Source: Lepisosteus oculatus
Lineage: Eukaryota > Chordata > Actinopteri > Semionotiformes > Lepisosteidae
NCBI RefSeq assembly: GCF_040954835.1
Contig: NC_090698.1
Span: 39,857,501 to 39,921,500 of the forward strand
Reading direction: 5' to 3'
Length of the DNA stretch: 64,000 bases
Part shown: one piece after another, positions 3,293-64,000 of the stretch
Layout: every line of letters begins with the position of its first letter
How positions within the stretch are numbered: position 1 is the stretch's first letter
Position numbers and translations under genes: made by a program
Notes under the pieces: generated by a model
What the model was told of the DNA's origin: nothing
Database searches by the model: none
Seen by the model: the letters and a program-made list of their open reading frames with translations, nothing else

Positions 3293-3815
3293 CAGTGCCT
3301 ATAGCAAGAAAGTCTGCACCCCCCTTGGACTTTTTCAAATTTTATTGTGTTACAGCATGGAACCATGATGTATTTAACTGAGAATTTTTGCCACTCATCA
3401 ACACAACACAAAGTACTCCAGACATTTTACTAAATTAAATAAAATTAAAAAACAGCAAATAATTGAATGCAAGAAGAACTACAGGAAAGGAGGCTACAAA
3501 AAGGCCTAAGGCAACTCTAAAGGAGTTACAGTCCTCCATGACAGAGGAGGGAGAAACTGTGTATGAGACAATAGCACACACACTTCATAAATCTGGCTTG
3601 TATGGAAGGGCGGCAAGAAGAAAGCCTTTGTTGAAAAAAACTCATATCACATCTAGGCTGGAGTTTGCCCAAAGGCATGTGAGAGACTCAACAATTTGGA
3701 GGAAGACTCTATGGTCTGATGAGACCAAAATTGAACTTTATGTTTGGTGTCATAGCTGATAGAGATCCAAAGAGACTTACAGCTGCCAAAGGTGGTCTTA
3801 CCAAGTATTACTTAC
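3293..3815 (+). mobile_element. Tc1-like transposon relic, internally deleted
   Basis: The left end reads CAGTGCCTATAGCAAG, a Tc1-type terminus. A frame at 3,463-3,759 encodes ATKRPKATLKELQSSMTEEG, HKSGLYGRAARRKPLLKK and LWSDETKIEL. It then jumps to a piece matching the transposase C-terminus (TAAKGGLTKYY-like, about 3,772-3,812). The DNA between the first catalytic Asp and the C-terminus is missing, and no right inverted repeat is evident. Confidence 0.85.
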
Positions 3816-8508: not shown

Positions 8509-9081
8509 CTAAACAACTCCTAAAAACTCGGTGTCTTCATCCTCCTTATCAACCAAGGTCCCCCCAATCATCATGCTCTGGAGAAGGCTTGTGGGAATGA
8601 CAGGCTTGAAGGACCTGTTGTGTGAAGAAAAAAATGGAAAAGAGGAGGACATACGGGCAGAAAACTTAGGGCACACCTCTCTCTTCTGGTTGCTGAATTG
8701 CAAGTTAGAAGTACACCAGTCTAACTCATCCCGCAGGACCTGGATCTCAGTTACTAGATCCCAGATTTTGGTCATGATGGACACTGAGCCTCCTCCAAAT
8801 ATCTGCAAGTCAGGAATCCAGCGCAGGTATCTCTGCATCCAGACTCTGATGGCAGGACCATCCAGACATGGGAGCAGGAGGCCATGGTAGTCAAGAGGCT
8901 TCCTCTGCCATGATTGGTAGAAGTCTCTGGCTGTCAGTGCAGATGCCTCAGGGGAATGTATCCATTTGGTGATCCTCTTTCCTAGCAGTATCTTTTTCAG
9001 GCTGTCAGTTTCTTCTTTAAAGAAACCTCTTCTTGGAGAGGACTTGAAAGGCGTAGCTGGCAAAGACAGTTGTCTCTGGTG
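8509..9081 (-). CDS. MTMR12: MTMR12 last exon (C-terminal tail, stop)
   Basis: 573 nt including the stop codon; acceptor CCTATAAAG after a pyrimidine tract. It encodes HQRQLSLP, KSSPRRGFFKEETD, LLGKRI, DYHGLLLPCLDGP, VWMQRYLRWIP, a Gly-rich turn, and an acidic end (DKEDEDTEFLGVV). Matches run the whole length of the human tail, including the final acidic stretch; the segment between the YLRWIP motif and the SSSFPF motif is the least conserved. Confidence 0.96.
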   Translation of the reverse strand, partial: HQRQLSLPATPFKSSPRRGFFKEETDSLKKILLGKRITKWIHSPEASALTARDFYQSWQRKPLDYHGLLLPCLDGPAIRVWMQRYLRWIPDLQIFGGGSVSIMTKIWDLVTEIQVLRDELDWCTSNLQFSNQKREVCPKFSARMSSSFPFFSSHNRSFKPVIPTSLLQSMMIGGTLVDKEDEDTEFLGVV

Positions 9082-12000
9082 CTTTATAGGCAAAAGCAAA
9101 AGGAGAAAGAATTAAAGAGCTCATACATTTGTTATCCAACCACTATGAATACATGTTTTGAGATTACATTTTTATTTCTCACCAGGGAGTAACAGAGTGC
9201 AAACAATTCACAGGAATATTTTCTCATAATTTCTCAGACAGGGCAAAGGATTTTTAATAATCAGAAGCAAGGAATTAAAGTCCACCAGTGGTGTCTGGAG
9301 TTCCAGTACATACTTTCAAATCTTGTCTAAAGAGATTCTGTTATAAAAACTATTCAAACCAAATAGTGCTACTATTAATAAAATGTCACAAGCAAAACAA
9401 AGACCAAAAGCCCAATTCAAATGGTCACAGCAGATGCAGAGTTACTAGATCTAGAGATGTAGCGATGTAGTTTCCCTATTTCAGCAGGCTCCCTAAACTG
9501 GATTTAAAAATCCCAGGCTGAAAAGTCCTGTCATTTAAAAATACAACTTAACTACTTACTACTAACAATATTGAAGTATACTGTATGCAGAGCAGCAGGA
9601 TATTAGGAGCCTTTTACGTGCTGCTGGGCAATAGCTAGCTCCCCTGAGTAGATCAGATTCTCTAACTCATGTTTTAACAAGGAACACTAGAGTCTCTGAT
9701 TTGGAGAACAGAGGAGGTATTAGCAGTGATCAGGATGGTATCTGAACAGTGCAGAGTGTTCCTGAAGAATCACACTGCAGACATGAACACCCCAATGGGC
9801 CTGACTTCTGTTTCACTGCTGGAGAGACTGTAAAAGGATTGCAGCATCAGTCTAAAGTAAAGTTATCCTCCCTGAATTTACAAGTAGAGGTTATATCCTC
9901 AGTTTTGCTGAGTGGCTTCTGATTCGGGGGGGAAGTATAATGGGAAACGTATGCTCTGTCTGCCACACTTGGAAAATGTTTGAAAATCCCTCAAAATAAA
10001 CATTTAGCTTCCAAAGTGTTACGGTATACTAAACATTATTTGAAAAATAAAGGAAAAAACAGAGTAATCTAAAGGAACTGAGCCAAATAACACTCATTAA
10101 AATGTTTAGCACTACTGCTTATTTTCACTGCAATTTTAAGTTTCTAACCACAGATGTACTAAAGTGTAGCAGTCAGAAATATATACAGTACAAGATACTG
10201 TATTTAGTAATGACAAATATATTAGTGAAAGTAATTAAAGATTTGAGATACACATACTTAATGTAGAAGGGCAGATTATTCTTATTTATTTAGATCAAAT
10301 TTGATTAAGCTGGACCTTTATACAAACACTAAGCAATAAATTAGTGATTTAAACAAAATCAGAACTTCACTGTAATGCTCCTATGGCGCACTACTACATT
10401 AAGTCAACCTGACTGGATTCCTGAAAAACACACATTATTGTTGTAACATTTACCTTCGGGCGATGCGTTTTCCTAGATGCTTTCTCTTGCTTTGGCTTCT
10501 CCACATAAAGAGGGTTAGTGAAGAAATCCTGGGCTTTGCAATCAAACTGCAGTGACCAATCCCATACTGTGGGAAATGTCAAGGGGTTCCTTTGTGCTTC
10601 TGGAGACTCAAACTGCCAAAACAAGCAGAGACTGTAAACTGGCAAGCAGGGTTTGCCAGGCAGCTCACTCCAAACATCTGCACAACATAGACAAATTAGC
10701 CTTAAAATAAGCAAGTATTCATTCACAGGCTGCACAGCAGCATCCAATGGAAAGTTTAAAAAAATGTCCAAAACTTTAGTAGAGAAGTCCAGATAAATGA
10801 TTGCGCTTACATGAAAAAAAAAAACAATTTCCAAATACAATCATATAGTCAGTAAACTGTCGTTGACAGTTTTCATTTTTTTCTGTTGATTTACAGAAAA
10901 GGCCTGTATAATGTATCTTGAGTGTATGGCACTTAAAAAGCTATTCATTTTAATGGAATACTTGAGGAAAAAAAATCACTAAGTGTGACAGCAGTTAAAG
11001 ATTGTAACTTTTCAGCGTTAAACATTTAGTAGAGCAGTCATTAATATGTAGTTGTTTTACCAAAAGGTTATTGCTTCCAGTTATTTCTCAAGGCAGCTTT
11101 TCCATTTTATGTTTGATCATTTGATGGGAGATGTGTTTTCTTCTGTAACTGCACAATAGTGAAACTGTAGACATTATACAGAGCAACTTAAATCTAAGAT
11201 TTTATGAAGCACTAGATTTCCAGGAACACTTTTCCCTCATTACTCAAGGGAGCATTTTAACCACTACAACCAGGATCCATACCCGCTACTTTGACAGAGA
11301 GAGTGGACTGCAAGTACATTAAGGGAAAACTAGAATGATACCTATCATGGGGGCAGTGCGGTGACTCTGTGCCTGTGGCTGGAAAGTTGTCGGTTCATAT
11401 CTCGCAACCAGCAGAGGAATCCTACTCTGTTGGGCCCCTGAGCAAGGCCCTTAACACCGACTGCTCCAGCCGTATAAATGGCTGAACCTGAGCTCTGACC
11501 CCAAGCTTCTCTCCCTGTCTCATGTAATTCCTCATACAAGAAATTGTATATGGCCAATAAAGTGATCTTATCTTATGTTTACAGCTGATTGGCCAAACAA
11601 TTTCTGGAGAGTAGTTAGCAGTATGGGGAGTGTTTTGCCGAGTGTGCGATGACTCATTGTGAGTGTTAAAACTGTGGGTTGCAATATGCAAAATGCAAGT
11701 CTGAAGTCACATACAGGAATCTAAATCAGTGACAGTCAGAATCTTGAGAAAAAAATAGCAGTTGTGGAGACATTTTTAAGAAAGATCAATGTAGATATGT
11801 ATTAACTGGTGAAAGAAAATGTGGTTGACGGGAACTTTCACTATATTGTCATTGCAGTGTCATTAGAATGACACCTGTCAAACTTAATTCAAGCTTGTCA
11901 AAGTTAATTGGCTAAACAGCTTTTGTAGAACAGTTAACATCACATAGTGTTTCATCTAGCACATGGTGACTTGGTCTGGACATGTGCAATATTTCGGCAG

Positions 12001-15000
12001 CCTGTGGGATGCAGTTCTGAAGCAGATCTGCAGTAGGTGTAATGAAAACCTGTGTAATGTCAGTCAGTGTAATGGCAGTTTGAACTCTATAAACACTTGG
12101 CGGCCTGTCAACACTGGTATGTCCAGGGGGTCACCAGAAACTACTACATTTGGAATTAACTGATCAATAAGTCCTTAACAGGTGCCTTTTGCATAACAGC
12201 TCCCATCTGAGGATGTGCTATAGGTGGAAAATTTATTACAACAGATTTTTAGGTGAGAATTCTAAGCAGCTCTACACATTAATTAAATCTGATCACTTTC
12301 ATATCATTGAGTGTTGTGTAGTGGCTGCCAAGACAGAAACACCTTGAAGTGTCAGAACAAAATGTCTTCCAATGTGCAGAGGCATCTCAACATACTCAGG
12401 AACGGAAGTGCATCAGATAATAATGGCATTCTTCCCAGAGAGAAATGTAACCATATTTGAAAGGAATTGGGCAAGTGCATTTTTTACAGCAGGAACTACA
12501 GTAGTACTACAAAACACATATCAATAATGAAATAAAAAAGCAGCCAGGTGGCCATCTGCAGTCTATGATATTCATCATGTTGACACCAGAGTGACACCTT
12601 GAAAACTTGGAGTTAACAGACCCCACAGTGTTTGAGCAGAATTAGTTTGCTTAATGGGCCATATTTCACACAACTTTATGACGTGCAGTCAGCATAAAAA
12701 TTAAAATCATTTCAGGTGCAAGTCTTTGGCTGTTGTTGAAGTGTGCCAATTTTCAATTCAGGTGATGTGGCAGTTCACAAGAGTTTGAAAGGTGTTTTGA
12801 AAACACCTTAGGCCACTATCATGGTTTTGACAGAAATTCAAGGATTTGAATTTCTGTCAAGACTATACAGTCTTTGAACAGCAGCTGTTCCAAAACCAGA
12901 AAGAAAATGATCCTCAAAATTGGAATATTTTTCCAGTCACTGCCGCATAATTAAAATCCTTACAACTGTAAAGACTTCTATCTATTGCTTGGAACCTTAA
13001 CTAAGGTATGTAACCAAAAGCTGGTTAATTAATAATTAAGTGACAAAACTTTTAAAACACAGTTTTCACATTCAAGTTAACATTATACATTTACATTCCG
13101 GACACAGATACAACAAATTCCACATTTACAAATAAAATACTGAAAGTATGCCAATGTCCAAGAAACTCAATGAAACAGAAAAGCTGTTATGAAGGTAAAT
13201 GTCCCTGCTGACTGAAGGCTTGCTAATGGCTAAAGATTTGAGAAGGCAGCACAGGAAGCTGGACAGCAGTGACTACACTTACAGTGCCTTGCGAAAGTAT
13301 TCGGCCCCCTTGAACTTTTCAACCTTTTGCCACATTTCAGGCTTCAAACATAAAGATATAAATTTTTTATTTTATGTGAAGAATCACCAAAAAGTGGGAC
13401 ACAATTGTGAAGTGGAACGAAATCTATTGGATTTTTGAAACTTTTTTAACTAATAAAAAAATGAAAAGTGGGGCGTGCAAAATTATTCGGCCCCCTTGCG
13501 TTAATACTTTGTAGAGCCACCTTTTGCTGCGATTACAGCTGCAAGTCGCTTGGGGTATGTCTCTATCAGTTTTGCACATCGAGAGACTGAAAATCTTGCC
13601 CATTCTTCCTTGCAAAACAGCTCGAGCTCAGTGAGGTTGGATGGAGAGCGTTTGTGAACAGCAGTTTTCAGCTCTTTCCACAGATTCTCGATTGGATTCA
13701 GGTCTGGACTTTGACTTGGCCATTCAAACACCTGGATACGTTTATTTGTGAACCATTCCTTTGTAGATTTTGCTGTATGTTTGGGATCATTGTCTTGTTG
13801 GAAGATAAATCTCCGTCCCAGTTTCAGGTCTTTTGCAGACTCCAACAGGTTTTCATCCAGAATGGTCCTGTATTTGGCTGCATCCATCTTCCCCTCAATT
13901 TTAACCATCTTCCCTGTCCCTGCTGAAGAAAAGCAGGCCCAAACCATGATGCTGCCACCACCATGTTTGACAGTGGGGATGGTGTGTTGAGGGTGATGAG
14001 CTGTGTTGCTTTTACGCCAAACATATCGTTTTGCATTGTGGCCAAAAAGTTCGATTTTGGTTTCATCTGACCAGAGCACCTTCTTCCACATGTTTGGGGT
14101 GTCTCCCAGGTGGCTTGTGGCAAACTTTAGACGAGACTTTTTAGGGATATCTTTGAGAAATGGCTTTCTTCTTGCCACTCTTCCATAAAGGCCAGATTTG
14201 TGCAGTGTAAGACTGATTGTTGTCCTATGGACAGACTCTCCCACCTCAGCTGTAGTTCTCTGCAGTTCATCCAGAGTGATCATGGGCCTCTTGGCTGCAT
14301 CTCTGATCAGTCTTCTCCTTGTCTGAGCTGAAAGTTTAGAGGGACGGCCAGGTCTTGGTAGATTTGCAGTGGTCTGATACTCCTTCCATTTCAAGATGAT
14401 CGCTTGCACAGTGCTCCTTGGGATGTTTGAAGCTTGGGAAATCTTTTTGTATCCAAATCCGGCTTTAAACTTCTCCACAACAGTATTACGGACCTGCCTG
14501 GTGTGTTCCTTGGTCTTCATGATGCTCTCTGCGCTTTCAACAGAACCTTGAGACTATCACAGAGCAGGTGCATTTAAACAGAGACTTGATTACACACAGG
14601 TGGATTCTATTTATCACCATCAGTCATTTAGGACAACATTGGATCATTCAGAGATCCTCGCTGAACTTCTGGAGTGAGTTTGCTGCACTGAAAGTAAAGG
14701 GGCCGAATAATTTTGCACGCCCCACTTTTCATTTTTTTATTAGTTAAAAAAGTTTCAAAAATCCAATAGATTTCGTTCCACTTCACAATTGTGTCCCACT
14801 TGTTGGTGATTCTTCACATAAAATAAAAAAATTATATCTTTATGTTTGAAGCCTGAAATGTGGCAAAAGGTTGAAAAGTTCAAGGGGGCCGAATACTTTC
14901 GCAAGGCACTGTATATTGTTGGCTGCAGACAAAGAGAGCTGGTTAATTCCAGCTTCTCTTCTAGTCTGGTTCTGTAATGGCTTTGAAAACAGGCTTTGCA

Positions 15001-18000
15001 CATACTGTCACCAGGGGTCACTGCTGCTTGTATTTTTCAAGAATAGAGGTCAAACGCAATTAGACATTCAGTGAGTGCTTATAGGAGTTTTTTAGAATAA
15101 TCTTAGGAAGACAGCAGTTGGCCATCCACTTTACATTTCATGCCCAACACATCTGGATTCCCCAAAGACTGGTTTCTCAGCTGCTGACATTGGCTTGTTT
15201 CTCCACATTGCCGACCAGTTCTTGCAGCTGATGTTCAGGATGATAACAGTAAGTGAAGAATGCAGCATACAGGACAAAAAGTAAAACTTCAGTACCTACT
15301 TCTACAGTACCTGTATCTTAAATCACTGAAGTAAAGCTGTCCAGGTATGTGAACCACTCAACTTTGTTCCCTCAATGGCTAATTTGTGGGTGGTTTGCAG
15401 TTCTGCCACAGCACTGGCAGGTGCATAATTTCATGTTTTCCTTAGGGTGACTGTGAAGTTGGAAAGCTCTGCTCCGAGTATAATCCCTCAGGACTGAAAT
15501 GTCCACAAACGGTAGTTCATGGACGAGCTGTTAGGTTGTCTTTGAGTTATAAGGTTACTTCTTCCAGCATCACATTGAAGAAAACTGTCAGAAGAATTCA
15601 AATGGGCACATAGCCCTCTTTTTTATTACTTAATGACAAAAAAAGCCATCACTGTTTTATTGACCCTGTTCTGTTGCATTCATTTACTGGATGATGGCTA
15701 GGAATTTGGGCAGATATGTAGACTTCTGAAGAATCTTCTCAGGCTGTCGGGGCTTACAGTGCCATGGTGAGGTCTATGAAGGCGATATACATCTTTTCGT
15801 AACATTTTTCTTGTACTTTTATTGTATTTTGGCATACCACCAATTCCAGAAGATTTGTTTTTCTGCTATATATAGCAGTATGATAGTGTTAAAGATTTGT
15901 CTAGTATTTGCCTCTCCGTGAGCTGGGGTACATAAAAGATGGAAAACTTGTATCTGGTGTATTCTGTGCTGAAGAGTTCTGTGCTTACCAGCTTTCAGGA
16001 CCCATCAGAACTTTTCGGTTAGCTCTGGATTTCATGTCGGATCACAGACTATTCTGTAGAATCCAGAATTTTGCTCCATTGTCAATGTACAACTAGGTTA
16101 TTCTTGCAATAGATGTGCATCAGTCATTCTGGGTTATGGGCAATTTCTTTTATTCTAAAATGCTCAAGGGGCAAACTTTTTGTTTTCCCATAAGGCTTGG
16201 ACTTTTCGTTAAAAACAATCACAGTGTTTGTTGGACACCCAACAACCAAACCATGTTCACCATAGATGATTCCATAAATCATACAGATATGCTCTCAAAA
16301 CACAATGTGAAACGTCTCTGATACCTTATAAAGGCCTGGATTCTAGAACATTAAATTAATTCTAGAATCAAAACAACAACAACTTTAACTTACTGTCAAA
16401 TGGGAAAGGGGCCCTAATTAAGGACAAAATAGGATCACCACTTTTTTATTTCAACAGTGGCATTAAAACACTCATCACCCTGAGCTACACATTCAACCCA
16501 ATAATAGTAGGGTATGTTAAAAATCCAAGAGCTGATAAGGAGGGGAATGTTTTTTTCAGGATTTTAGCCAGCTGTAAATTTATTTCCATTTTTTAAAGCG
16601 CATCTCAGTCATGCTGAATGGCATTGATCACAAACAGCCTTGATGGCCTATCCATTTTACTATCTTTCTCTGTAAAAGCAGTTGGCCAGGCTAGCTAAAC
16701 AAGTCTGCTAAAATATTTGCACCAACAGATGTTGCAAAAAAGAATCACATCTTTCTACCCATCATTTGGATCTGAGTATAGTCACCCATGATTGCCCCAT
16801 TCATATAACAAAAGGTTGAAACACCTATATGAATTTATTTCAAATGCCACATTGAAGACCATGTTTCCTCCATCATTTTCCAAACTGCATCATGAGTCAT
16901 CACAGAAAAGAATAATGTTCTGCTATGCCAAGGTTGATTTTAGCTTAATAACCTAAGTCTTATGATGGTTTGCACATTAACTTCGAATGAGACTGCTTAA
17001 ATTCTTGCTGAAAGCTGTATTTCTCTGAAGATGAATAAGTAAAGTAGCATGGTACTTCAAATGGGTGAGAAAATGGATTTATTAATGTTGGTAATCCAGC
17101 TCTGTCTGGAACATCAGTTTTAAGGATATTAACTTTTAGCTCTTCTTACCTTCATGGCAGAGTCCTTCTGGCACAGAGAGTTGAAGAGGAATGTGCTGAA
17201 GAGAGGAACATGGATACTATCTGACAGGACAGTCAAGTAGGTTTCAGAAAACTGAAATGCTGGAGTATGTTGTTGCAGTAACTGCCAGACACACTCCAAA
17301 AACAACAGGAAAACAGGAGACTGTGACTGAAAAGAGATTAAAAAGTACATGTTGTGTTAAGAACATAACACCTATTAAACAACCTGTATAATAATGTAGG
17401 ACTATTAAAAAAAAATCATATTTTAAAAACATAAAATAACAGTCCATTTAATTATTTTAATGACTCATGGAGTGTGAATTGTGTGTCAGAAGAGTGAAAA
17501 ATCATTTTCTGAAAGAAATCAAAATAAGACTTTATTCCATCATCTGGTTGAAACATACAAATCAAGATTTAAGTTTGTAGCACAAAGGAGTGTCATACAT
17601 CTGATGGGTAAAACAAAATAGCTGTTTAGAGTAAACAGGAAAAATGTGATACTTTATTTCCTCATAGTAACTACTAGAGTCTCTTAAAGGGAAAATAAAC
17701 AACTTTTTCAGTTTTGCTGCAGAAGGTCTTTGGTACTTTAAAGGGGAACTGCTATTTTCATATTTTGGGGTTAGAAAGAATCAGTATTGATGAGTGCATT
17801 TCAAACCATAATAAAAGTAAAATGTATACAGTGACTTGTAAAACCTCCAATTTACATCACAAAATAGACAATTTCCAGGTATGAGCAGACCCACGTTCTA
17901 CAATTTAGAACGAGGCAACAAAACATTCGGTGACGTGTTGAGGCCTTTGTAAACAAACAGGCTTGTGAATACATCTCTTTAAATCAAACAGAAATATTGC

Positions 18001-21000
18001 TTTTGATTTCGAGACGTATTTGTTAACTCTGCCTGCAGATCACATTGGAACATTTCTGTGGTGAAACGTTTCCTGCACAACCTGTATTTATTCTCTCGTA
18101 CATCACATTGCACTAGTCATTACGTCATTAGTAATTCATGTCAATGAATGTATTTTGTTACTGAGATTTAATAACTGGTCTGAGAAATTGGGACTGTAGT
18201 TTCCCTTTAAGTTTAAACGTGTAGAATAAGAGTGGCAGCAGAAGGAGGCTCTAAGATAGCTGGTCCTATGGTCGCCCAGCAAGAGGGTCCCATTACATGA
18301 GCCAAAGATTTCTTCATGTCAGAAGATGCAGTTAGAGCACAAAACAAAAAAGAAATAACAGATGAATCAGAATGATGGATATATGTGTTTAGAAAACTTT
18401 GTACAAGTGACGATGTCACTCGCTACCCTGCCCAACTGCACAAAGGTGCTGCTCACCATGTAGAACGGGGGGTTTCCCCACTCCTGGTCCTGGAGGATCA
18501 CAAACGCCTGTTGTTTTTTGCTCCAGCCAAGCTCTCAGGTACACAGCTGAGCTTTTAATCGACATAACTGGATTACTTTGAACTGTGATGGTTTACATTT
18601 CTTCATTTTTACTTATTTAAATGTAATAATTTACAAAATCCCACTTTTCAGTAGAAAGAAAATTGCAAGTGTTCCAATCAAGCATCTTGTTTGTTTAATT
18701 AGGCTGCAATTAGGTAATTAAACTTAGCGGAAATGAAAACCTGCAGGTGTGTGGGCCTCCAAGGACTGTGATTGGGAACCCCTGATATAGAGGACTGCTG
18801 AGACTAATACACTTTAGTGTAGGCCAGTTAGTATTTCCAACTGTCAAGATCTATGTATCTCAGTGTTGTACAAGATAGAAGCTGTATCCCAAGATACAAC
18901 CAACCCCACACTTGTTGGCCTGACGTACCTCCTTGTCCCTCTGGTGAAGATGGTTGCAGCGATCGAGAAAGCTGTGGCAGCCAGCCACCCATTCCTTCTG
19001 CACTAAACTCTGGAAACCTGAGAGAGTTCTGAAAAAGGGATCCATCATCAGCTGTACCAGGCTGGTGATTATGCAGCTAAGGTCAGAACCATCCTCCTCT
19101 GCAGCAGAGCAAAACCAACAAGTGTTGCACTGTATCAATGTTAAACAAGCAATTCAATTTAATAACCAGATGCTCATCAATTAAACAAAAGGTACAAAAG
19201 GTAATATGAATACAAAAATGGAAAAAGGTACAGATTTATGCCACTAAATTAATATGAATTTTCGTAGTCATTGAAAAACATGCAGTATGAAGTTGTACTC
19301 GAATACTATACAACCTGAAATAAAATACTACCATTCTGATATTTTGATCAATAAAATCCAAAATCTGTACACTTACCCATCATAAGAACATTTGTGTTTT
19401 CTTTTTCCAAGCACTCTACTATCTCCACTGCTTTTGTAAGACACTGTCTGCAATCGGGAACATACAGTAGATCTGTTCATTTAAGTTTGAACTGACTTAT
19501 TAGTAACATACTGTAATCAACGAATCATTCATGCATATATTTTAAAACTTTTATTTTTTAAAAACTAACCTGATATGGTCTAACCATCCAGAATTTTCCA
19601 AAGAAGAAAGCCATTTCATATCTGACATCCAAAATTCAGTAATATTATCTGTATAAAAAAATGCAGTGATGTCATTTTCACCATAACCCCAATTAAAAAG
19701 GTAAATGTAAATTGGCAACTGCAAAAGTGAACAAGCATCTGGTCAGAATTTTTTCTTATTTAAAAAGAAAAGAACAGGTGATGAAATTAGATCCTTTACA
19801 GCTTACATAATTATATTTCACAATCATTCCCACAACATGTTTAGTTTCTTATTTAACTTTCTCCTGAGCACTCACAGCAAACGCACTGTATCAAAGTTCT
19901 TTTCACAGGTTATAATCCACCACTTTGTCAGATTAGGAGATACCCCAAAGGCTTATGTTCACATACCATAAAACTTGTTCCAGGCAATTAACCTATTATG
20001 CATTACAATGTAAGAGGTCTATGTGAATATGTTTAGGAATTTATAGTAAGACCCATTAAATGCCTAAGTTGCCTTGTATGTCCCTATTTAAACTGTGGAG
20101 GTAAATTAGATTGGATGTGCATCATCATTTTGTACATTACATTTCAATATCCCATTGAATTCTAAGCATGCATCCTTGCAAATGACACTGTCGCATAAAT
20201 ATGAGAACAGTGCATAGGTTGTGATGATGGTTCCAGTCTAACTTGTGATACTATAAATTGTACATGGTGGCTCGGCAGCCACGAGGAGCAAAATACTGAC
20301 ATTTGTTGTTCCTCAAGAGGCAGAAAAGACATAATAAGCCCCTAGTTTTTTCGTTTAATGCCAGTTACAGCATTTTTGCTTCACTAAGGCTGTTGCCAAA
20401 CAGTGGAGTAAGTCACGCATTTTCAATTAAATGTATTTAGAATAATAGAATTAGAAGGCATTAAACAAGCAGCACTACAACAGCATCCTATTGTCTAAAG
20501 CAGGGGTTCCCAAACTATGTGCCTTGACTGTTCCAGGCAGTTCTCAGGCACAACTCATTCTGTGAAACCCACATATTCACATGTGTACAGAGTACACACA
20601 TACAGCAAGTTTATGAGAAGACAGACACTTAACATAACCTTGGTTACATAAATATCGGTCTCTTTCTCACTTTTTCCCCAATGTTATTTGGTTTACATTC
20701 CTAACACTGTCGTGTCCACACCCCTACCACGCTTGCTGCTCTCCAAGAGATACTGCCAGTTCCTTCTGTTCGAATCTTCACCATCTGCATTTTAAATTCA
20801 CTCAACACTACATTTGTATTATCTTTCCTTTAGAGGATGCCAAGAGCAAACTCTACAGAGAATTTGATCACAATGTGGATTACCAGACTCCTCTGGGACA
20901 GTAAGCCTTAAAACCCAGAATCTTCACTTCCACGACTTCAACTGGACAGTAACAATACCTCTATTCTGCCATTTCCAGTTTCGGTGTTCAGATAGTTTTA

Positions 21001-30000: not shown

Positions 30001-33000
30001 TATATATCATAATGAGTAAAGAACCATGCATGGAGTAGATGAATCAAATCATTTTAAATTATTTGAAAAGAAACTTACGTAAAAAGATACAATATTCCAA
30101 ACAGCATCTTAAGAGGAAAATGATAAACATACTCAAACAACTGGAAAATCTAGGTCATGATCCTATGACAAGATTTGTCATTTTAAATTGTGGTATTCCA
30201 ATGTGAATGCTGTGAATCATAAGTTGTATGAAGGGGTCTATTATTGAAAAATGTAATTTCATGCAGTTTTGCACTGAAGCAGTGTGAAATGGGGTCTCTT
30301 ACACAATAAGATGCACATTTAACAACAACATACTAACTAGAGATAATTAATATCCTTTCCCATAAGAGCATACGTTATACACCCTATCCTGGAAAGATGT
30401 CCATTCTTAGTAATGTGTAAATATAATGGAAATGTGAATACTAGCTTTATTAACTAGATTCACAATGTAGGAAAGCAGAACTAGTTTTGTTTTTGTGTAA
30501 ACAAAGTCAGTTACAAGCCACAGACAACTATTTTAGAGAGGTTTATACAGTATGTGTTGTTTAAATGGAACAGCTTTTAGACTTAGGGTCTTATCTTTTA
30601 AAATACTGTGAATAAAAAGAATGTGAATGATATTTACAGTGGCTATTAAAAGTATTCTCCCTCCTTGGACATTTACATTTTGTGTTTCAGTATGGAATCA
30701 ATGCATTTAACTAGGAGTCTTTGCCATTGATGGACAGAAAACAGTCTATAAAGTGTCAAAATGAAAAAACAATTCTACAGATCCTCCTAAATTAATTTGG
30801 TAGAGGCAGGTTTGGCAGAAATTACAGCCTTGAGTCTTTTTGGATAAGTTTCTACTCGATTTGCACATTTGGACACTGCAATTTTTGCCCATAACTTTCT
30901 CAAACTCCCTCAGGTCGGATGGAAAAAAAGGGTGAACAGCAATTTTGAACTTCTGCCACATTCTTAATTGGATTGGGGTCTAGGCTTGACTTGTTTTCAT
31001 TTTAATCCACTCCAGGGTGGCTTTGGCTGTATATTACAGGGTCATTGTCCTACTCGAAGATGAATCTTCTCCCAAGTCCCATGTCCCTTGCAGACTGCAG
31101 CAGGTCTTCCTCCAGGATTCCTCTGTACTTTGCTGCATCCATTTTTCCTTCTGTCTTCACAAGTCTTACAGGCCCTGATGCAACGAACCTTCCCCACATC
31201 ATGCTACTGCCCCCACCATGATTCACAGTAGTGATGGTGAACTCAGGATTATGTTAACTGTTAGCTTGCACCAATCGTAACGTTTACCATTAAGGCCAAA
31301 AAAGTCAATTTTGTTTCTCATCAGACCATAGAATCTTCAACGTGGTCTCAGTGTCTTCTGCATGCCTTCTGGTAAAGTATCGTCAAGATTTCATGTGTTT
31401 TTTGTCGCTCTCCCATGAAACTCAAATTTGTAAAGCACTGTCAAATGCACTTTCTCCATCATAGCCAGGGAAGACTAATTCCTTTACAGTAGTCACTAGC
31501 CTCTTTGCAGCCTCCCTGACTAGTGCACATCTTGCCTGGATTCTCAGTTTCTGAGGACACCTTGTTCTTCACAGGTTCCCAGTTGTGCTATATTTTCTAC
31601 ATGTATTTATAATGGACTTTATTGAGCTTTGGGGGACATGTATTACCTTGGAAATTTTCTTATGCGCTTCCCCTGATTAGTGCTTTTCAATAACCCCAGA
31701 TTTACTTTGTAAGCTGGGTTGTCTTTGTGATGTAGTTTTTGTTGGGACCTGTACTAATCAACTGTGGGATGTCCCAGAGATAGGCATATTTATCCTGACT
31801 TCATTTGAAACACCATAACTGCACACAGGTGGACTCCATTCAACAAATTATGTCTTCTAAAGACCTTTGGTCGCAGCAGAGCCAATTTAGGTAGGTCATA
31901 GAAAAAGGGGGTGAATACTTATGCAATCACATATTTTGTTTTATATTTTTAATTAATTTAGGATGATGTGTAGAATTGAAGCCTTTCTTTCTTTAATTTG
32001 ACATTAAAGAATATTTTCAGTTGACCAATGCCAAAAACATTCCCAAATAAATACATGGTGATTTTACATTGTAACACCGTAAAATGTGAAAGTCCAAGGG
32101 GGTGAATATTTTTTATAGCCACTGTAGCTTTGGACATTTGTCAACAGTAGAAAATCAACAAAACAGATTTCTAATTCTGCTTTTAGAACATGTTTAAATT
32201 AGCATCTACGGACAGCTGATGATCTGACTGCTTACTATTAAAACACACAAACATGGAAAGGCATTTCCTGTAAGATGCAGTGCTTTGCAGAAGTACTCTG
32301 AACCTTGCACAGTTTTTACAACAAAAAAATAATATGAAAGTAATGATTGTACAAGTACAAACATCCTTGCTGTGGCAATCCTAAATTATGGAACAAGTAA
32401 AGGTTTATTCCATGCTGAAAAGAGAAGAAAAGAAACACAACCTTTCGTCTGTGGAGCCTTCTTCTCGAACTACTTCAATCCTAAATCATGTACACTAAAT
32501 TACCATAATGACCTACACAAATAGTTGAGTAGCCTCTGTGTGCAATATCAGTAGCCAGCAGAATTTCAGAGTAAATACAGCCATCTCTGTAAGGTCTCTT
32601 GGTCTGAAGTGATTTTCAGGCATACAGTTGTATGTAGATTCAACCATCAAAAATAATGAGCTTTCAAAACAACTCCTTGTATAAAGCTATAGACAAGGGT
32701 ATAAAAATATTTCAGAGCCCCTTAATATCTCTTTAAGAGTGGCGAAGGCAATCATTAAGAAATAGAAGGCATCGAGACACAGCCTGGATCAGGCTGTCCC
32801 CCCAAACGTACAGTAGTACCTGGGCAAGAGGCAAACTGGTAAGGATGCCACTATACAGTAAGGCTAACTTTGAAAGAGTTGCAGTGGCTACGATTGGAGA
32901 AAGTGTCCATGGGCCAACCACTTCCCAATCATGACACAAAGGGGGCTTATATGGAATTGGAAGCCAAAATTGAAAGTTTTTGACCTAGTGCAAAGTGTTA

Positions 33001-36000: not shown

Positions 36001-39000
36001 TCATCATGCAAGAAAGCCATGGTTCTCTAGAGTCTAATCACTCCTGTCCAGATGAACCTTGGACCTCACCATTAATAGTCCATAAAATGACTTCCATAAA
36101 GGTGACATATGGTGAATCATTGATAAACGGGACTTTACTGCTAGTAAGTCTCAGTCTACTGGTGCCAAGCAAGGTTCCTTTCTGTGTTTTTCCATTGTGA
36201 TTTTCAGCAGACTTATACATTCATCAAGTTAAATCACCAGATGAACTATGCCTAATCAACTTAAGAGGTGATTCTGTACATATTGTAACGCAACGGGGGC
36301 TCAGGCGGGCACCCTTGCCGCATCTGGTCGGCCCCATCCCGACTGGAGGCTCGAACCCGGGACTCCCGCGTCTCTCTGCAGCGACCTAGCCCCGTGAGCT
36401 AAAGAGAGATCTCTCTACAGCCCAGTAGCTGTAGTCCTGCTATCACAGGGAAGGGCGGTGACGTCACCTGCTCTGGTACGCCGGCTCTTACACAGTGCCT
36501 GTCGGCCATAAGCGTTACACTCTCCACCACTTAAATCGCCGTCCCTGGCGAAGGGCTATCCCACCCCGCTCTGACACCAATGTAACGCAACGGGGGCTCA
36601 GGCGGGCGCCCTTGCCGCATCTGGTCGGCCCCATCCCGACTGGAGGCTCGAACCCGGGACTCCCGCGTCTCTCTGCAGCGACCTAGCCCCGTGAGCTAAA
36701 GAGAAATCTCTCTACAGCCCAGTAGCTGTAGTCCTGCTATCACAGGGAAGGGCGGTGACGTCACCTGCTCTGGTACGCCGGCTCTTACACAGTGCCTGTC
36801 GGCCGTAAGCGTTACAATATGAAACAGTCAAAGACACTCAAGAGTATCAGAATCCCAGACTCAATTAATCAAAATAAGGACAAAACATGTAATCAGTATC
36901 CATAAATCTGTAAACTATTTTCACGAAAAGCATGCATGTTTATTCTAATGCTCAGTTTACTGTACATTTAACATTCTTAGTGCATTATATTATTTTTTAT
37001 AAATCCCCCTTTGTAAAGGAAGCTCAAATAAAGCACAAGCCTGCACTTATATGGATTCACCTTCTTTTCAGTGAGTTCCCAGTGAAATTCTATTACAACC
37101 ATAACCATTTCTGCAAATCAAATCTCTTTGTAGCTTCTTACCTGGAGCTGCTGCTGTCATTTCACAATAGGAAAAGGCAAATATACATTTTAGTGACTTG
37201 GGCTCAAGACTGTGGTGAACAATTCCCTGAAAGATCTAAAACAAAGCAGTAAAATAATTACATTCATTCATTTTAATTTCTGGACATAGAATTGCAATAA
37301 TTACAAAAATGGGGAAGTGATTTAAAAAAGATGTAATACACCAGTGAAGCATATAAGGCACAGTAAGAAAACAAACCGTGGTCAGCAGTTGAATAAATAC
37401 CTTTTTAGCTTCCTCTTCTTTTGCATACGTCAAACAGAACTGAAAGACTCGCAGGTCTTTGCAGTAAATAACAAGCTTTGATGGGCTCTTGTTCTTTACT
37501 TGGCCACCAATTACCAGCTTTTTCTTTTCATCATTCACTGAAAAAAGACAAGGGCACAAAGTGAAGCTCAGATTTCCTTCATTAGGAAATCATGAAACTC
37601 CTGAAAAAATGATTCAGCCTTTAACTATGCTCAAAATCACTGAAACGTTTTGATATAGTATACACCCATCTCTTGATTTACAGCTGTAATTTGTCCCTTG
37701 AAAACTATTCATAAGGTGAAAATTTGTAAAAACAAAATGCTCATTACCTTACACATAAAACCATTACCACCATTACTTGGATTAAACCAATGAGCGAAAT
37801 CGTCAGAATACGAACCCCTTTGCTTTTTTGTAATTATTATTTACCCTAGTAAAGTAGATCAAATGTACAACAATTCTAAGAAAACAGATGCACCAAAAAC
37901 CCGTGTTGTGAAAGCTTATGCTATGAAAAGGACAAAGGACATGTCTTCATTGTAGTGAAAAACACTGTAACAAAGAAGAACAGGTAATGACAAGCTTGCT
38001 TTGTTATAGCAAAACATATGAATGTTTGTAAACTCGGGGTGGGTGTTTTGAGTTTTAAGCAGGTAAAAATTACATCTGCCAATAATAAGAAGGACCAAAG
38101 CATTAAATGGATAGACATAAGTAATGATTTTGGGCAACATTTAGACAGACCTCCATATATTTGGTCCACACATGTCAGAGGGATGTCGTTTTCTCCATAA
38201 AGTTTATTCTTGAAGAGCTGAGGCTAGAAAATAAAATTATATTTGATATTATCCACTTTTTACCTAAACATTGAGAGAAAAAACTAATTACAAAAAGCAT
38301 CCATTTGGCTCTCAACCTCTAAGAAGAACCCCTGAGAAGAAAAGAAATGCTATTAGAATCTCTAGCATGGTGGTGCATGCTCTCATTTACAACTCACTGT
38401 AATCACTGTGGGCTTGCCTTTCATTTTATAGTGTTTTCAGACACACTTCAAACTTTACCAAACCACAGAGGGAGGAAAGTGAAGTCTGTCCTCAAACCCC
38501 ATTTCCCAGATGTGCCACCTTTTCATCGACAGAAAAATTACGTCAGAATCTTTGTTCTCAGAAGAAAATCAGTCAGAGCAATCTCACTTAACTACCCGCT
38601 GTGGCGCTGTGGTGAAGTCTATCACAGTGGACTCAGGAACTGTTGGCTCTTTTTTATGTTCTGCATTTTATTTGGTACAAACTATAACTCTTTTGTCAGG
38701 TTCCTTAAACTCCCAAAAATAGTAAAGCAAGCCAGCCTTTCCAAAAGTTGACAGAAAAGGAACCTGTGAGATTTACTAAGTTTCTGTGCTCAATTACAGA
38801 ACTATGACATGTCAATGACCCAACCATGTCAAAATTAGAATTTAATCCTGTTCTATTCAGCTGCAGCAAAAATTATAGTACTAAAATAGAAGGCTTCAAT
38901 TCACACTACACTGTTGAGATGCTGACAGGAAACAAGAAGTCACAGAAATTAATTATATTTATTTATAAATGCTGTGTATCCACAGCAAAACAAATGGGTC

Positions 39001-61623: not shown

Positions 61624-64000
61624 CTAAAGACAGAGGAAGAAAAGAAAATAAACTGTGATCCCAAAAACTGGAACCAACTAACCGAGTTAGTTCATTCAGA
61701 ACTCATCCATACTAGTTAGTACAATGTGATGCGAACACTCAATAAGAAATGCATCGTATGACACCTTCTTCACTTTCTACAGTTGGCGAAGGTTTTGAAA
61801 TTATCTGAATTACACCAAATTATAATATTCTAAAGAAGACAGCTTCTTTATCATTTCAATTATTCAAAATGTGGGTAACAATTCACATGCTTCGCATGAT
61901 CAAAGTTTCATAAAAAGAACACTCATAAAAAGAAGAACAGGTGTGTATGAAAGATTTGTCTTGTCTTGTAACTCAACCTCAACTTAAGAACACACACAAC
62001 TCTTAAAACAGTGCTCCAGAGAAGGAGACATTTATCTATGCTTGATATACAAGGTTGCTCTTGGGTTATTGGAAATACCTCCAATAATGATGCACTTACA
62101 ATCATTTTAAAGCATTGTGTAAAGAAAAAAATAGTTACAACCAACATCAAAACGGACACTCCTTGGCCATCACATGCCCTAAGATGCAGATTATATCATC
62201 CCTACTGTTGCTTTACCCTGGCACTTTTCACTTAAAAGTGCATCTGTTTCCAGGGGGGTTAAAAGTTCACTTTAACAATCATGGCCAAAAACAACCATTT
62301 CCATGTGTAATCAAAATAATTTAACTTGACTTCATGCGTCAGTTTCTGTACATTCCCTTACAAACAATGTACAGTCACAAGTTGCACAGTGAAATGACAA
62401 ATTGACCATGAAGACAAAGGAGCTTTCAGACAAGACAAGGACAAAGTGGTTGAAAGAAACAGATCAGGGGGTAGTCACTAATCTCTTTACAGTGATGCCA
62501 ATCATCAGAAATTTGAACATGGCAGAATGTTTTATTGTCATCTACACAACAAAACTTAAACATTTTGCCTAAACGCAATGCTGAAGAAGCTGCCTAACAG
62601 CACATTATCCAGTTAGCATCATTACAGTGGTCAAGCAAGGTGGTGGCGGCATCATGTTATCAGACTCCTTTTAATGAGCAGGAACTATGAATTTAGTCAA
62701 GACAGAGGGGGAAAAACAGGTGGTACAAAGAACCCATGAAGGCCAAAGCCACACTGAAGTAAACTGACGAATAAAGTGAAGGACTCGGTCACTGAATGAC
62801 TGAGTTGACTCCAATTTAAAAGTTACAGTGATGCTTGACTGCAGTCTATTAAGTACCCAAATGAACTTGCCAGAACTAAAGCACATTTTGCCAGAAAGAC
62901 AAAAAAGCATTTGAGAAAAGCTGGTAGAAACTGGTATTTTCATTAGAAAACTAATGAAAATAGTGACAGCAATAAGTTCTGCCAAAGATGCTTTCACCAA
63001 GAACGGACTTAGTGGGATGAATACTTATATGAAGGGAAAATTGCACATCTTTGGAGGTTTTGCAGACATTTAACATCCTTCACATAAGTGTTTCACAAAA
63101 CAGAGTGAATACTTCTGCAATGACAGTTCTGCACTTTACATTGGCTACAGACTATAGCCAACCCTTTAACTAGTTTGTGTGTAATTCAGTATTAACACTA
63201 AACGTTGTGACGTGGTACGAGATTGTCTGTTTCCGTATATTTACTTTTCACTTGATGTGAAAAATCTGCAAATATCAATGCCATTAACTGTAACTGCATT
63301 AAAACAGCAGCCACAATTAAAACAATGCATGTCATTAAACAGTGGTCTTGCACGACAATTAAAATGGGGATTCGCAGCTGTGTTGTGACTTTCAATTGGT
63401 AGTAGCTGAACCCCACAAACCTTTGAGAGTGAACAAAAGAGTCTCACTTAAACTGAAGACCATTATTAAGATCCTTTCCACTATAACTTATACAGGACCA
63501 TTTAAATAACAGATAATTAACCATAATATAAATTAGAGATCCACATTAAAAATAAGAGATTCACATTCTTCCGATTCATATACTCACTTTAGGTCACTGG
63601 ATTCACACCAGTCACCTCCCCAGCTTGCATGGCAAGAGTAAAAAATTCCAATCTGATCATGAATCTTGAGAGAGATAGCCTGAAACTGCAAGCTTGCAAT
63701 CTCAAACCAAAGAACTATGAGAAAACCTTAACTTCTAATAGTGCATCTGTTTCCCAATTCTTCTTGGTCAATTTTACACCTGGCACTCTAGTCAGTGTTT
63801 GTACAAGCACCTCAATGTACAATGAGGCCAGCCTTCATCCTACTACATTATCGTAAAGTAAAGGGAGACCGTCTATACAAGAAAAGTTATTTAATGTTTA
63901 CAGCTGCAGCAATGAAAGAGTTACATTTCCTCACTTGTTGACGCTTCATTAAAAAAAATGGTGTACTCCACAAACTACCACCAGAATAATTTTTTTTAAA
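61624..64000 (-). other. ZFR: Last ZFR intron (partial)
   Basis: I found no further ZFR exon here on the minus strand. The stretch holds a decayed Tc1 element (about 62,390-63,125); the remainder is AT-rich with nothing recognised. Confidence 0.6.
62390..63125 (+). mobile_element. Tc1-like transposon relic in the last ZFR intron
   Basis: The plus strand keeps a VKQGGGGIML-like piece near 62,632-62,660 (TCAAGCAAGGTGGTGGCGGC), an AKDAFTKN-like C-terminus near 62,980-63,005, and a right end with GAGTGAATACTTCTGCAATG. The frame is destroyed by stops and frameshifts. Confidence 0.7.

Follow-up and report, generated by a model that had tools for sequence, protein, structure and literature searches.

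Essentially one wave? About 2,000 near-identical Tc1 insertions in a gar genome, viewed from an intact copy in an MTMR12-type intron

Introduction

A structurally complete Tc1 transposon with an uninterrupted transposase gene can be understood in several ways: as a chance survivor of an otherwise dead family, as one product of an amplification, recent or merely recent in appearance, or as a copy that its host has kept for its own purposes. The question is raised by a locus of Lepisosteus oculatus within the 64,000-nucleotide stretch examined here (contig NC_090698.1, positions 39,857,501 to 39,921,500 of the forward strand; 'the window', whose first letter is position 1 below). A preliminary description, made from the letters of the window, took the element to be young and suggested recent arrival or recent activity. 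The element itself, its site, its relatives elsewhere in the genome and the pattern of their decay are considered in turn, before the accounts of origin and age are weighed.

Structure of the element

The element is complete, occupying window positions 13,282-14,911 (1,630 bp); read directly, its first letters are CAGTG and its last CACTG. Its features are as follows.

13280..13281, no strand: left target-site TA (letters read directly)
13282..14911, minus strand: complete Tc1 (DD34E) element, 1,630 bp; the transposase is on the minus strand, as are the MTMR12-type exons
13282..13494, plus strand: left terminal inverted repeat, 213 nt, two mismatches against the right arm (repeat alignment)
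13290..13312, plus strand: left arm outer direct repeat of the IR/DR structure (repeat D1)
13476..13498, plus strand: left arm inner direct repeat, 186 nt from the outer (repeat D1)
13501..14520, minus strand: transposase open reading frame, 339 aa plus TAA stop, with paired helix-turn-helix (HTH) and DDE domains (translation, Pfam)
14696..14717, minus strand: right arm inner direct repeat (repeat D2)
14699..14911, minus strand: right terminal inverted repeat, 213 nt (repeat alignment)
14882..14903, minus strand: right arm outer direct repeat (repeat D2)
14912..14913, no strand: right target-site TA (letters read directly)

The earlier reading of the structure, with both ends and their TA flanks preserved, an IR/DR organization and 213-bp arms differing at about two sites, stands and can be sharpened. 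The boundaries are exact, with TA at 13,280-13,281 and 14,912-14,913. The inverted repeats pair across 223 nt at 98% identity; the arms differ at exactly two sites within the first 213 nt, arm positions 81 and 110, and four further mismatches follow beyond that point, at 214, 217, 219 and 222. In each arm a distance of 186 nt separates the outer direct repeat from the inner, and arms of about 200 nt carrying two direct repeats each are those of the IR/DR group, of Sleeping Beauty type.

The transposase likewise has the parts attributed to it, a preserved 339-residue DD34E protein: the reading frame is uninterrupted, and three Pfam domains are found, all above their cut-offs. HTH_SB (residues 1-51) and HTH_Tnp_Tc3_2 (68-138) make up the paired helix-turn-helix of Tc1 transposases; DDE_3 (E 6.4e-17) is the third. 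The catalytic triad is D152, D243 and E278, with 34 residues separating the last two, the DD34E spacing. Among NCBIfam models, the related bacterial IS630 family passes its cut-off, and IS481 falls far short of the one set for it. Of the solved structures, Sleeping Beauty matches best (5cr4, E 4.6e-88); its chain aligns, from residue 3 onward to the last, with transposase residues 112-339.

Sleeping Beauty is a reconstructed salmonid Tc1, with IR/DR arms and a ATATATAT-like target preference. The gar element shares its domain order (HTH_SB, a second HTH, DDE_3) and its TA target, and the sites of the gar family show a ATATATAT-like preference as well. It differs in its transposase protein, which is diverged from that of Sleeping Beauty in the structure alignment, and in its history: Sleeping Beauty was reconstructed, whereas the gar copies are native and near identical, 27 of 40 sampled copies still having the frame. 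By analogy with Sleeping Beauty and its kin, the transposase would bind the two direct repeats of each arm through its paired HTH domains; the DDE triad would cut the element out; the excised element would be joined into a ATATATAT-like TA site; and copies would be gained when the host repairs the gap left at the donor site.

Site of insertion and other repeats in the window

Pfam was run on five minus-strand open stretches of the window, of which three matched.

8512..9111, minus strand: open stretch with a 3-PAP domain, MTMR12-type, on the downstream side of the insertion (Pfam 3-PAP, E 2.4e-33)
17132..17356, minus strand: open stretch containing a myotubularin-related exon, on the upstream side (Pfam Myotub-related, E 5.6e-15)
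18,863-19,153, minus strand: open stretch with a second Myotub-related match (Pfam)

The other two, at 10,397-10,840 and 37,239-37,589 (both minus), gave no Pfam match; the former may hold a further exon of the MTMR12-type gene. With Pfam matches on both sides, the Tc1 is placed within an MTMR12-type gene and in one of its introns, downstream of the exon near 17.2 kb and upstream of that near 9.1 kb. The placement in an MTMR12 intron proposed at the outset is thus supported by 3-PAP and Myotub-related exons on either side.

DNA comparison reveals three other Tc1 stretches in the window. All are remnants of different and older Tc1 families, at 67-77% DNA identity to the intact element, in agreement with their earlier description as dead copies: those at 30792-31709 and 62585-62713 contain stops, and that at 3472-3808 is a fragment. 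Elsewhere in the window, at 36284-36832, a 252-nt sequence is present in two direct copies, 96% identical and 297 nt apart; Tandem Repeats Finder at score 120 lists nothing there. The 1-kb left flank of the intact copy has its only full match in the assembly at its own place, so that the assembly offers no second haplotype in which insertion polymorphism could show; the other matches to this flank are two short ones (75-80 nt, 76-78% identity).

Copy number in the genome

The genome-wide count of near-identical copies that the preliminary description called for has been made, and about 2,000 were found. A 52-nt pattern consisting of the TA and the element tip, which each element presents twice, matched exactly 1,822 times on the forward and 1,821 times on the reverse strand; its reversed control matched 0 + 0 times, so chance matching is excluded. 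An internal 30-mer matched exactly at 970 + 992 = 1,962 places, evenly on the two strands. Allowing up to three mismatches (10%) raised this only to 1,049 + 1,074 = 2,123 (control 0 and 0), and an older tail is therefore absent up to 10% divergence in the 30-mer stretch. Inexact matches make up 7.6% of these, against 10.2% expected if every copy stood at the sampled mean divergence, an expectation somewhat too high because the 30-mer contains no CpG. Such pattern counts are independent of any similarity ranking, and register exact or near-exact matches only. With 1,962 copies, each 1,630 bp long, about 0.27% of the 1.2-Gb assembly would belong to the family. These counts rule out a chance survivor, which would be accompanied by few copies, all of them diverged.

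Two sets of copies were examined individually. The first, the best 40 of 749 candidates from a similarity search, is biased toward the closest matches: every copy is full length, and none falls below 99.57% identity to the window copy, itself one of the 40; 36 of them keep the frame; any two differ on average by 4.1, and one matches the majority in all columns. The second was taken by position, from matches to the 52-nt tip. At least 59 elements were listed on one contig (C1): 41 have both tips exact, at a spacing of 1,533-1,586 nt, and in the other 18 a single tip is exact. The first 40 of the 59 form the sample, which lies within the first 28.3 Mb of the contig and favours younger copies, since at least one exact tip was required. 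Full length is retained by 37 of the 40. The remaining three, whose best stretches are 1163-1630, 1-422 and 445-1630, are truncated or rearranged derivatives, a small minority.

Transposition as the source of the copies

The 40 best and the 37 taken by position give 77 full-length entries, which represent 76 distinct sites, one having been fetched twice; an assembly artefact is thereby ruled out. TA stands on both sides in 77 of 77, as expected of a TA target duplication. The target consensus is A-T-A-TA-T-A-T-like (A 0.73 at -4, T 0.55 at -3, A 0.59 at -2). Some similarity between flanks, at E 1e-10 or better, was seen in about 25 pairs; similarity above 90% over more than 150 nt was confined to the site fetched twice. 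The copies thus point to transposition rather than duplication.

In the majority sequence the two arms are identical across 213 nt. Left and right arms have six variant types in common, whereas chance would produce about 1.1; this implies sequence exchange between the arms or recurrent mutation at shared sites, and arm divergence is ruled out as a clock. At arm positions 80 and 81 (window 13361-13362 and the mirror site), beside a T-run, the same variants recur on both arms: among the 37 copies, 80C is found 5 times on the left and 7 on the right, 81T 10 times on the left and 4 on the right. Either exchange between arms or a mutation-prone site could produce this.

Divergence and decay

The 37 full copies sampled by position differ from the column majority by 5.86 substitutions on average, or 0.36% (median 5, range 1-18); of 184 variant types, 169 are singletons. 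The exact 339-aa frame is kept in 27 of the 40 sampled copies; this figure leaves out two more full copies with open frames of 343 and 372 aa, and eight full copies have shorter frames. Were the fraction to apply to all 1,962, frame-keeping copies would number 1,000-1,600 genome-wide, an extrapolation from exact-tip copies on part of one contig. Relative to the majority, the 37 copies show 27 synonymous, 89 nonsynonymous and 5 stop changes; dN/dS is 1.01, so that copies decay neutrally once inserted. The spectrum of change (of 217 substitutions, 109 are transitions and half are transversions; 32 of 217 fall at CpG) is flatter than we would expect for neutral vertebrate decay.

Substitutions per copy are overdispersed (variance 9.9, mean 5.86), and the expression 'one wave' may therefore conceal a range of insertion ages. 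Copies with at most one substitution number 1 of 37, against a Poisson expectation of 0.72; as there is no excess of them, the wave may be over. There is no sign of a flood of brand-new copies; slow ongoing activity is compatible with these counts.

Against this background the window copy is an average member of its family, structurally intact and with an open frame. It carries 5 substitutions relative to the sample majority, exactly the sample median. Two of them replace amino acids (126 and 310), and at both positions Sleeping Beauty, in the structure alignment, has the residue of the majority; the window copy's own activity is thus unproven, and doubtful. That this particular copy has been specially preserved, or co-opted, in MTMR12 is very improbable. 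Its open reading frame and its intronic position in sense orientation are what such an idea could draw on, but a copy with the median number of changes, two of them amino-acid replacements, does not look favoured, and the frame is also kept in 27 of the 40 copies sampled elsewhere.

Origin and age of the family

The copy in the window very probably belongs to what was essentially one amplification wave of a cut-and-paste Tc1 (DD34E) transposon in the gar genome, comprising some 2,000 insertions, most of those sampled being still full length. The observations beneath this reading are the structure, the TA duplication, the target preference, the copy number, the lack of older copies up to 10% divergence in the 30-mer stretch and the neutral decay; the source of the wave would have been one or a few nearly identical copies. 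The recent activity suggested earlier is supported by about 2,000 near-identical copies and by full length in 37 of 40 sampled, with the reservation that low divergence alone does not prove a very recent date.

One way to account for such a wave is horizontal invasion: the element would have entered the gar lineage from another aquatic animal not long ago and amplified at once, and may still move. The chances of this seem about even. A newcomer would leave no older relatives, as is found up to 10% divergence in the 30-mer; the open 339-aa transposase in 27 of 40 sampled copies fits as well; and in the available text of PMC7070016, Tc1/mariner is the commonest horizontally transferred type in vertebrates, with ray-finned fishes involved in about 94% of inferred vertebrate transfers. 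Against this, a low-copy resident awakened from a single master would look identical from inside one genome; no excess of copies with 0-1 changes points to present activity; and no donor or second host was found in the collections searched, that is, no relatives among phages, plasmids, viral contigs or prokaryote genomes. The one specific link that had been proposed, to a sequence type widespread in fishes and lampreys, fails. The Group 1 Tc1 shared by lampreys and teleosts is another lineage by its primers, six of which (20-23 nt), at their best ungapped placement on the gar element, leave 8, 9, 8, 7, 8 and 3 mismatches, and Group 1 was PCR-negative in Florida spotted gar (PMC3516227). Membership in Group 1 is ruled out on the basis of this primer comparison.

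Another account supposes that the family is older than it looks: that the wave took place several to many million years ago, and that slow change of gar DNA keeps its copies young in appearance. This has a substantial chance of being right, though somewhat short of even. According to the available text of PMC13345097, gars rank among the vertebrates with the slowest substitution rates. At 2e-9 substitutions per site per year a divergence of 0.36% would place the wave 1.8 Myr ago, and at 2e-10 it would place it 18 Myr ago, both rates being illustrative. Decay is moreover under way, with dN/dS at 1.01 and 10 of 37 full copies lacking the exact 339-aa frame. On the other side, large indels are uncommon among the 59 listed elements (41 have both tips exact and separated by 1,533-1,586 nt), an argument weakened by the requirement for exact tips. 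Because gars evolve so slowly, low divergence does not by itself indicate a very recent date, and 'young' needs calibration; the older end of the age range must be taken seriously.

Relation to known families

The similarities to described families can be drawn from published accounts. Members of the ZB, ZB-like, SB and SB-like DD34E clades are, by description in the available text of PMC9777934, mostly 1.5-1.7 kb long, with a transposase of about 340 aa, arms mostly of 180-300 bp and a TA target, as here; for ZB-like elements, at least 100 intact copies are reported in 26 species, and Lepisosteus is absent from the main text of that paper. The salmonid long-arm Tc1 elements (DTSsa9, with 212-bp arms, and kin) have in common with the gar element a CAGT end, the TA site and arms near 200-213 bp, by description in the available text of PMC2198921. 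Group 1 Tc1, or DTSsa1, of lampreys and teleosts belongs to the same superfamily, is of similar length (1,610-nt consensus) and also reaches high copy number, with thousands in sea lamprey; its copies are 92.5-100% identical to their own consensus and, unlike those of the gar family, most have interrupted reading frames (PMC3516227).

For gars themselves, Tc1-IS630-Pogo elements are given as 2.65% in longnose gar in the available text of PMC10320754. No description of this particular family was found in the open-licence literature consulted. The end sequences of the element had no match in open-licence papers, which says little, since such sequences often sit in databases or supplements.

Significance

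Elements of this kind are familiar; what makes the case interesting is the host, a very slow-evolving lineage in which a DNA transposon has amplified in a sharp wave. Suppression of transposons is among the possible reasons proposed for very slow molecular evolution in gars (available text of PMC13345097, citing Braasch et al. 2016). About 2,000 near-identical insertions, with an open transposase in 27 of 40 sampled, show that any such control was incomplete in the gar lineage, at least one DNA transposon having evaded it. A stronger version, that a horizontally acquired Tc1 invaded the slow-evolving gar within the last few million years and is still transposing, is possible but on balance unlikely. 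If it were true, the gar would hold roughly 1,000-1,600 uninterrupted transposase genes, and its slow evolution could less readily be put down to a general suppression of transposable elements. The dispersed insertions, being of similar age, form a set of markers that, compared between gar species, could measure the neutral rate directly; the same markers could reveal whether the element came from outside.
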